A stretch of 64,000 nucleotides of DNA from Pseudoalteromonas tunicata (GTDB lineage: Bacteria; Pseudomonadota; Gammaproteobacteria; Enterobacterales; Alteromonadaceae): positions 2,334,001 through 2,398,000 of the forward strand of contig NZ_CP011032.1 in the NCBI RefSeq assembly GCF_002310815.1. The letters are read 5' to 3'. The first letter of the stretch is position 1. Every line of letters starts with the position of its first letter. Shown here piece by piece: positions 52,070 to 53,385 of this stretch. The notes under the pieces are model-generated. The model saw only the letters and a program-made list of their open reading frames with translations, was not told where the DNA came from and did no database searches. The translations under genes were made by a program, and so were the position numbers.

Positions 52070-52156
52070 AACGCCTCGTTAAGCGGCGAGAAATAGTTGG
52101 CTATAATTTGTGAGGCACGAACAAAAGCCAACTGTTTTTTGTCCGTTTAAACGACT
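52070..52156 (-). other. attC site of the second TIR cassette, hit by two elements
   Basis: AACGCCTCGTTAAGC at the left abuts IS1182-like copy 2. AGTTGGC/GCCAACT arms are present. The right box is cut by the IS110-family element after CGACT; its remainder CTTGTTATAC is at 53361-53370. Joining the two parts restores a normal attC. Confidence 0.88.
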
Positions 52157-52210
52157 TGTATGGATAATAAACCCATCAAATTATTCTTTTAAACCGAGTT
52201 CGGGTAATGT

Positions 52211-52351
52211 GAGACCCAGGCTTTAGCTGCAACTAAAGCTCTCTTTTGTGGTAGTTCGATTGAGCGATGGATCCTCTGTTGAGAGACCGATAACAAGAAT
52301 GAACGCCACAAAAGACTCCAAGCATCACACTCGAATAGTCTACTGGGTCTC
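52211..52351 (+). ncRNA. Candidate bridge RNA (seekRNA) of the IS110-family element
   Basis: Nested perfect stems: GAGACCCAG (52211-52219) with CTGGGTCTC (52343-52351); CTTTAG/CTAAAG hairpin (52221-52237); CTTTTGTGG (52243-52251) with CCACAAAAG (52306-52314). The loop inside the last stem carries ATAACAAG (52290-52297), the exact complement of the attC target CTTGTTAT at 53361-53368. CGATT at 52257-52261 resembles the left target CGACT. ATAGTCT at 52335-52341 also occurs at the element's right end (53354-53360). This fits bridge RNAs described for IS110 elements. Confidence 0.75.
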
Positions 52352-52385
52352 GAACCCGCATTATGCAAGCAAGAGTTAGCTTATT

Positions 52386-53336
52386 ATGAAAACAAATACT
52401 AATCAAAACATTAATGTCGGTGTCGATACCGGCAAATTTCAACTCGATATTTATATTCGCCCTCTTGATATCTATTTCACCGTTAAGAACGATGAAAAAG
52501 GGATTGCAGAGGCTATTAAAAAAATCAAAATTCACTCTCCAAACCGCATCATTATTGAAGCCACTGGCCGCCTTGAAATGCCCTTTATTATTGCATGTGC
52601 AAAGGCCAATTTACCCTTTGTCATTGCCAACCCAATACACATAAAACGCTTTGCTGGCGCCATTGGTCAACGCGCTAAAACCGATAAGCTAGATGCACAG
52701 TTAATTGCACATTATGGCGAGGCAATTAAACCCACACTCTCCACCCTAAAGCCTGACATTATGCAGACTATGAGTGATTTGGTTGCCAGAAGAAATCAGC
52801 TGTTAGTCATGCAAACGATGGAAAAAAACCGCCTGCAAATTTTACCAAAAGAGCTGATTTCAACCATCAAACCTATTTTAACGGCCTTTAAAAATCAGAT
52901 TAAAAAAATTGAAAATAAAATTCTAAAACTCATTGAATCATGCCCTGAATATTCAGCCAAAAACACGATCCTGCAAAGCATGAAAGGCATTGGTAAAATT
53001 GCCGCTGCCTCCATCATCAGTAACTTACCTGAGCTTGGCTATATGTCGAATAAAGAAGCCGGTGCATTGGTTGGCGTTGCGCCTATGAATCGCGAAAGTG
53101 GCCGCTATAAAGGGCTTCGAAAAATTCAAGGTGGGCGGCATCAAGTACGCACCGTTTTATACATGGCGATGATGTCAGCCATCCAATCAAACCCTGTTTT
53201 TAAATCAACTTATCAGCGATTAGTTGCTGCTGGGAAACCGAAAAAAGTAGCGCTTATTGCGTGTGTCAGGAAGATGATTGTGATCTTAAATTCGATGCTC
53301 AGAGACGGAGTAATGTGGGAAGCGCCAAAAGTTTAA
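52386..53336 (+). CDS. IS110-family DEDD transposase (recombinase)
   Basis: 316 residues. N-terminal RuvC-like DEDD domain: [37 protein letters not shown]-terminal Tnp20 domain: [34 protein letters not shown] (candidate catalytic Ser) and [18 protein letters not shown]. Full length with no visible lesion. In this family the protein uses an element-encoded RNA to pick both target and donor sites. Confidence 0.93.
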
Positions 53337-53385
53337 AATTAGCTATTGACGCCATAGTCTCTTGTTATACGTTTTTATTGCACCA

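Follow-up and report, generated by a model that had tools for sequence, protein, structure and literature searches.

An IS110-type element in an integron attC of Pseudoalteromonas tunicata, with a predicted bridge RNA whose guides match the attC end

The window, as we call the whole analysed stretch of 64,000 nucleotides of Pseudoalteromonas tunicata DNA, contains an IS110-type element inserted in an integron attC. The element is very probably moved by a bridge-RNA recombinase, with the target guides of its RNA set for the R''/L'' end of attC. We also consider it likely, at a somewhat lower level of confidence, that the IS110-type lineage to which it belongs is an RNA-guided parasite of cassette arrays independent of the IS1111-attC group, that diversification of its guides goes hand in hand with that of the attC types of the hosts, and that a simultaneous change of both guides lets it exit this niche, as in the relative L022. 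The lineage reaches down to about 51% protein identity and has been found in Pseudoalteromonas, Alteromonas, Colwellia, Shewanella, Vibrio, Photobacterium and others, as well as on plasmids. The covariation of guides with flanks and with element ends is strong; across relatives a change in the guides tends to be accompanied by one in the insertion site, so that insertion is most likely steered by RNA. The original prediction of a bridge-RNA element programmed for attC is supported by the site, the fold and the covariation, but its assignment of the left guide was wrong.

An IS110-family element had been proposed at 52155..53370. The element is there, but comparison of the junctions in five own-genome copies and in relatives places its ends better at 52157 and 53362. 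The main features are as follows:

52157..53362, + strand: IS110-type element, 1206 bp (from RD through LD, with a single CT core included)
52386..53336, + strand: transposase/recombinase gene, 316 aa
52155..52156, + strand: core dinucleotide CT of the left junction, from the sequence and by analogy with IS621
53361..53370, + strand: core CT and right target TGTTATAC (attC R'' end), from the sequence, the own-genome copies and the right ends of relatives
52052..52156, - strand: remainder of the interrupted attC, from the - strand orientation of the cassettes and similarity to uninterrupted attCs

The family assignment was confirmed by the open reading frame at 52386-53336. Both the DEDD RuvC-like domain (PF01548, 68.2 bits) and the Transposase_20 domain (PF02371, 64.9 bits) were detected over the cut-off, and the transposase matched NF033542 (profile search, 209.8 bits vs a cutoff of 140) and the solved IS621 recombinase (PDB 8wt6, E 6e-27). 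In an alignment with IS621, its acidic residues and its ESG-motif serine line up with their counterparts, and we take them to be catalytic. Noncoding sequence amounts to 229 nt upstream of the gene (52157-52385) vs 24 nt downstream (53337-53360), and by eye the ends have only TATGG/CCATA in common, with no long subterminal inverted repeats seen. This is the layout of the IS110 type: long upstream noncoding sequence, a short right end, and no or short subterminal repeats. It bears on whether the element is a plain member of the known IS1111-attC group, with which it shares the target class (one end of attC, as in ISKpn4 and ISPst6 according to the sections of PMC11187229 drawn on here). Insertion in a cassette attC was indeed found, directly in the window and among relatives by the right-flank motif (72/81) and, as a group, by fold-back; the noncoding region downstream of the gene that marks that group, and its long subterminal inverted repeats, were not. 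Given the long region upstream, the 24 nt after the stop, ends with only TATGG/CCATA in common, and a bottom-strand match that precedes the top-strand match as in the IS110-type ISEc21 and unlike IS1111 (same sections of PMC11187229), such membership is very improbable.

The two-nucleotide CT core is present at both junctions (52155-52156 and 53361-53362). In the five full own-genome copies and in relatives, left junctions read ...NT/TGTATGG and right junctions mostly ...CATAGTCTCT/TGTTA or ...CATAGTCGTT/TGTTA. The base before the T is target-derived and variable on the left and tracks the element type on the right, as would be expected for a core of two bases, in most cases CT or TT. Three own-genome copies in different attCs (L003, L004 and L005) all have an A-run early in the transposase gene that is one base shorter; because they have this in common, they may have moved in trans or depend on slippage. 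When the ends are joined as a circle, the spacing between TTGAC(G/A) and the GATAAT that follows it is exactly 17 bp in 92/98 loci with both ends readable (duplicates kept). The halves of this putative junction promoter in the window are:

53346..53351, + strand: -35-like half, TTGACG, which would form the promoter on end joining in the circle
52163..52168, + strand: -10-like half, GATAAT, from the same two-end comparison

The genome of the window comprises two contigs (4.96 Mb). The gene for an integron integrase was located at 60195-61156, split across two frames (ORF list and profile search), and the cassette array extends to its left on the - strand; another full-length integron integrase match is at G000:C1:2266860. 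A single attC is occupied by the window element. In BLAST searches with the joined flanks, a query with one T too many, three uninterrupted attCs (at 46754, 49545 and 56691) aligned with the attC beside the element over 92-99 columns, at 79.8-84.0% identity. R'/R'' complementarity in the reconstructed attC gave no clear signal and was set aside; the comparison was flawed by design, because within an array each attC takes its R' from the adjacent cassette. Two TIR-like proteins of the ThsB type and one SLATT_3/SLATT_1 protein are encoded by the cassettes next to the element (53386-55260, - strand), which suggests that these cassettes are of the defence type. A transposase-like region is present in two copies (44834-46668 and 50118-51966), 85-96% alike where aligned and apparently broken in both. 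A TwoAYGGAY RNA (RF01731) at 61596-61712 scored 42.6 bits, slightly below the gathering score of 43.

Copies elsewhere were expected to sit in attC with matching guides. All seven right ends in the window's genome abut TTGTTA, and all five readable left ends finish in attC-like-looking sequence. Among relatives, 81 right and 60 left ends were read (L049 omitted on the left), with the reservation that the loci are related and that some genomes hold several copies, so that counts are not of independent events. TTGTTA, the attC end, follows 72 of the 81 right ends (71 by the strict pattern, plus L006), near variants follow two others (TCGTTA in L071, TTGTTG in L076), and the right end of L022, a retargeted copy with matching guides, is followed by TTATTA; 55 of the 60 left ends read TTGTATG. 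Six of the 81 right ends (L024, L070, L083, L086, L087 and L089) are unexplained, having neither TTGTTA nor a guide seen to match. As a group, left flanks folded back better than swapped flanks (6.78 vs 5.98, 0/5000), whereas singly only 32 of 97 loci ranked in the top fifth (duplicates dropped). Outside the window the sites are presumed to be attC mainly from the right-flank motif. Use of the same guide at unrelated sites, which would speak against the original prediction, was not the general pattern, although two loci with the usual right guide and an unusual right flank, L024 and L070, are possible single exceptions.

Three of these right ends (L083, L086 and L087), on contigs of Pseudoalteromonas denitrificans, abut CTTAATA and not TTGTTA. 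A search of the P. denitrificans genome for the upstream RNA found none. By eye, sequence resembling the start of an integron integrase gene lies about 225 bp downstream of L086, and L083 has an apparent integrase C-terminal fragment. The P. denitrificans copies may represent a lineage whose target has shifted to a site next to intI. In an even draw of 196 genomes of the family, the element was called in 37 (E <= 1e-60) and an integron integrase over the cut-off in 143; the latter was found in 33/37 element-bearing vs 110/159 other genomes (p 0.009).

The region upstream of the transposase gene is predicted to encode a bridge RNA with two target guides:

52209..52351, + strand: predicted bridge RNA upstream of the gene, with a conserved fold
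52258..52268, + strand: left target guide GATTGAGCGAT, 11 nt, the variable segment in the first internal loop, covarying with the left flank
52269..52288, + strand: apical hairpin separating the two target guides, with its pairs invariant in 23 or more of the 24 sequences
52289..52297, + strand: right target guide GATAACAAG, complementary to the right flank CTTGTTA(T), with a consistent core base in 95/95 pre-selected loci
52147..52155, + strand: left target in the window copy in the better of two registers, 6 Watson-Crick and 3 G-U pairs of 9

The presence of a structured RNA upstream of the gene, as foreseen, was borne out by a shuffle test (folding z of -3.41; an equally good fold in 0/200 shuffles) and by the conservation of the fold in 24 chosen relatives, in which 11 of the 41 predicted pairs show two-sided compensatory changes. 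The internal loop is closed by GTTC/GAAC and by the apical hairpin, with the left guide, which is variable, on its 5' side and the right guide on its 3' side (about alignment columns 55-64 and 87-97). No bridge-RNA family was found by Rfam in window positions 44000-62000.

The right guide matches its flank most directly. As had been noted, a segment of the loop is complementary to the attC at the insertion site: ATAACAAG (52290-52297) is the exact complement of CTTGTTAT (53361-53368). Further occurrences of CTTGTTAT in the array were also verified, at 46855 and 59194. Over the whole window this 8-mer was found five times vs 3.83 expected; as it is not enriched, the match is weighty only through its position in the loop and through the relatives. 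In these, the right guide GATAACAAG or GATAACAAA complements C/T-TTGTTA, and its core base complements the core base of the element in 95/95 loci (77 G:C and 18 A:T), a set restricted to right flanks fitting T(G/A)TT(A/G), with duplicates under other handles dropped and with L024, L058 and L070 thereby outside. In a less filtered set the agreement was 65/66, the exception being L058, which has an extra T. On the transposase tree, two or three changes of the core base of the right guide are seen.

A match between the RNA and the element itself was also detected:

52335..52341, + strand: left donor guide ATAGTCT, equal to the element right end across loci in five variants
53354..53360, + strand: left donor, i.e., the element right end ATAGTCT, from the 95-locus comparison
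52323..52329, + strand: candidate right donor guide CATCACA, which could pair with TGTATG with one bulge (by eye, tentative)

The 7-nt donor guide, ATAGTC(T/G/A/C) or ATACTCG, equals the element right end in 92/95 loci (misses L034, L158 and L047); the variants are T, G, A or C at position 7 and a G to C change at position 4. Conservation of the candidate right donor guide was not found in the aligned relatives.

For the left target, a pairing of CGATT with CGACT had been suggested. This involves the wrong segment, since the one that tracks the flank across relatives is GATTGAGCGAT; CGATT was rejected as left guide because the GTTC of TTCGATT is in the conserved stem. The RNA was found in 76 copies and in none of 45 other listed loci, many of which are right-end fragments, and no recognisable RNA was found upstream of L063. 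L122 and L123 (Proteus and Providencia plasmids), which have only the first 60 nt of the RNA beside an IS5 transposase gene, were excluded from the counts. The core-anchored analysis included 70 of the 76 RNA copies, giving 61 unique guide/flank pairs, or 62 with the window copy (identical to the pair of L003). In the window copy, the 9-mer TTGAGCGAT pairs with TTAAACGAC (6 Watson-Crick and 3 G-U) one base upstream of the core-anchored register, in which only 3 Watson-Crick and 2 G-U pairs of 9 are formed. With two registers allowed, the 62 pairs averaged 7.63/9 (Watson-Crick and G-U) vs 6.73 for swapped flanks (0/10000) and 4.67/9 for letter-shuffled left guides; the better register was one base off the core-anchored one in 35/62 pairs, that of the window included, and there were 6 ties. 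Among 90 unique pairs (duplicates under other handles kept, core count 40), the better of two registers gave 7.37/9 (Watson-Crick and G-U) vs 6.11 when 36 guides were permuted as units (0/5000). No hairpin match was obtained in this guide extraction for L154, L165 or L168, the last of which has 49% identity.

Core-anchored and without L022, L058, L059 and L076 (57 pairs), the controls did as well in 0/5000 trials for Watson-Crick pairs and in 48/5000 with G-U included; with one flank per guide in addition (26 guides), Watson-Crick pairs averaged 4.73 vs 4.42 (176/5000) and Watson-Crick plus G-U pairs 5.69 vs 5.50 (483/5000). The left pairing is loose, and covariation in the 26-guide core-anchored set is weak. 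Such weakness in the main group, once the replaced guides are removed and each guide is given one flank, is what would be expected if the match reflected only shared history, i.e., related elements in related attC families of related hosts, with no guiding. The permutation at the level of whole guides (0/5000) argues against this, as do the own-genome copies L002-L005, which match their four left flanks at 8, 9, 8 and 7 of 9 positions in the better register (the left flank of L003 is that of the window), and the guides of L022, L059, L058/L076 and L166, which were separately replaced and each match the new flank. Shared history is thus a most unlikely explanation, and steering by the RNA is preferred.

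Large replacements of the left guide were seen in several relatives. In L058 and L076 (Shewanella) the left guide is TATCCTTAT and the flanks are TATCCTTAT and TATCCCTAT, respectively (9/9, and 9/9 with G-U). L059 has the guide CGACCCATT and the flank CGACCCAAT (8/9). L166, with 51% protein identity and about 2.1 kb from an integron integrase, has the guide TGATTGGCT and the flank TGATGGGCC(T), 8/9 one base out of register. In L022 both guides have changed: the left guide is CTAACAGCT at the site CTAACAGCT/TATTATGG (9/9), and the right guide AATAAG faces TTATTA. This site does not resemble attC; its right side is a repeat, at the edge of which L022 lies. Twelve distinct uninterrupted copies of the repeat were compared from five genomes of the genus of L022, its own included: TATTATGG follows the junction in 10/12 and AACAGCT precedes it in 3/12, the others having nearer or farther variants. 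The exact full target of L022 (17-mer) was found in 0/6 genomes of its genus, and no integron integrase over the cut-off was found in the genome of L022 (G054). An intact attC-like sequence was seen by eye about 285 bp to the left of L022. The repeat is about 150-200 bp long, typically starts TATTATGGAGACTTCTCAGTAATGTCC, and is present in several copies per genome in 5/6 genomes searched (L188, L193-L203); by eye, an integrase-like ORF lies beside it in L022. The repeat may itself represent one end of a different mobile element.

An explanation without guiding is that attC, as sequence or as folded hairpin, is recognised directly by the transposase protein, the RNA complementarity being a by-product. 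It is known that attC sites fold, and with TTGTTA common to 72/81 right ends the right guide alone hardly varies. The letters of a noncoding RNA, however, covary both with the flank and with the element end, and L022, whose protein is related (87% identity), sits at a different target that is matched by both changed guides. We therefore give reading by the protein very little probability compared with guiding by the RNA.

Based on these comparisons, the following course of events is proposed. The RNA would be transcribed from the circle-junction promoter, and a bridge-RNA recombinase would move the IS110-type element. Strand exchange would take place at the CT/TT core. With guides set for the R''/L'' end of attC, as they appear to be, copies would enter between R'' and L'' and always in the same orientation, the reverse of that of the cassettes, and attC function would probably be lost at the occupied cassette. 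If this mechanism is correct, single cassettes in marine integrons are blocked by such elements, and one RNA strategy has met attC twice, in the IS1111 and the IS110 types. The clade provides a natural experiment on the evolution of bridge-RNA guides, in which covariation with the respective DNA partner is seen for the left guide, for the core of the right guide and for the left donor guide, and in which one or more moves to a target other than attC, with both guides changed, have been caught.

The IS1111-attC group, reportedly described by Tetu and Holmes in 2008 and by Post and Hall in 2009, is said to include ISKpn4, ISPst6, ISPa25 and ISPa21. In the sections of PMC11187229 drawn on here, ISKpn4 and ISPst6 are IS1111-type elements that target one attC end and have a downstream RNA with two target matches; RNA-guided insertion in attC is therefore already known in principle. 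Like that group, the window element has a DEDD transposase, an RNA with two short target matches and insertion at one attC end; unlike it, the RNA is upstream and the match order is that of ISEc21, so that the element is set apart by layout, repeats and match order, as far as those sections describe the group.

The excerpts of PMC11208160 used here describe the IS621 bridge RNA as having a left guide that pairs with the bottom strand and a right guide that pairs with the top strand, both of which cover the core. Within that description, the window element resembles IS621 in a target loop with the left guide 5' and the right guide 3', in a core common to the guides, in a left donor guide matching the element end, and in the aligned acidic residues and serine; it differs in donor-guide order, which is a point against the bridge-RNA reading, in having attC as its target, and in a core that may be CT or TT. 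Junction promoters have been reported for ISEc11 and ISEc21 (PMC11187229, same sections). ISEc21 and its redirected relative ISMch6, also of the IS110 type, are like the window element in the upstream RNA, the promoter at the circle junction (putative in the window element) and natural redirection through changed guide bases, but according to those sections they target a conserved region of IS3-family transposase genes, whereas the window element targets attC.

For Shewanella, PMC9229058 reports that attC was not interrupted by any IS, and places five IS110 elements in variable regions. The abstract of PMC11616780 refers to IS110 disrupting attC, and its text names ISPa21 of the IS1111 group. 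In a search of the literature on IS110, bridge RNA and integron attC, covering titles and abstract openings and with subscription journals largely outside its scope, IS110-type elements with an upstream RNA that target attC were not found. The clade of the window element is most likely the IS110-type counterpart, in marine Gammaproteobacteria, of the attC insertion carried out by IS1111-type elements.
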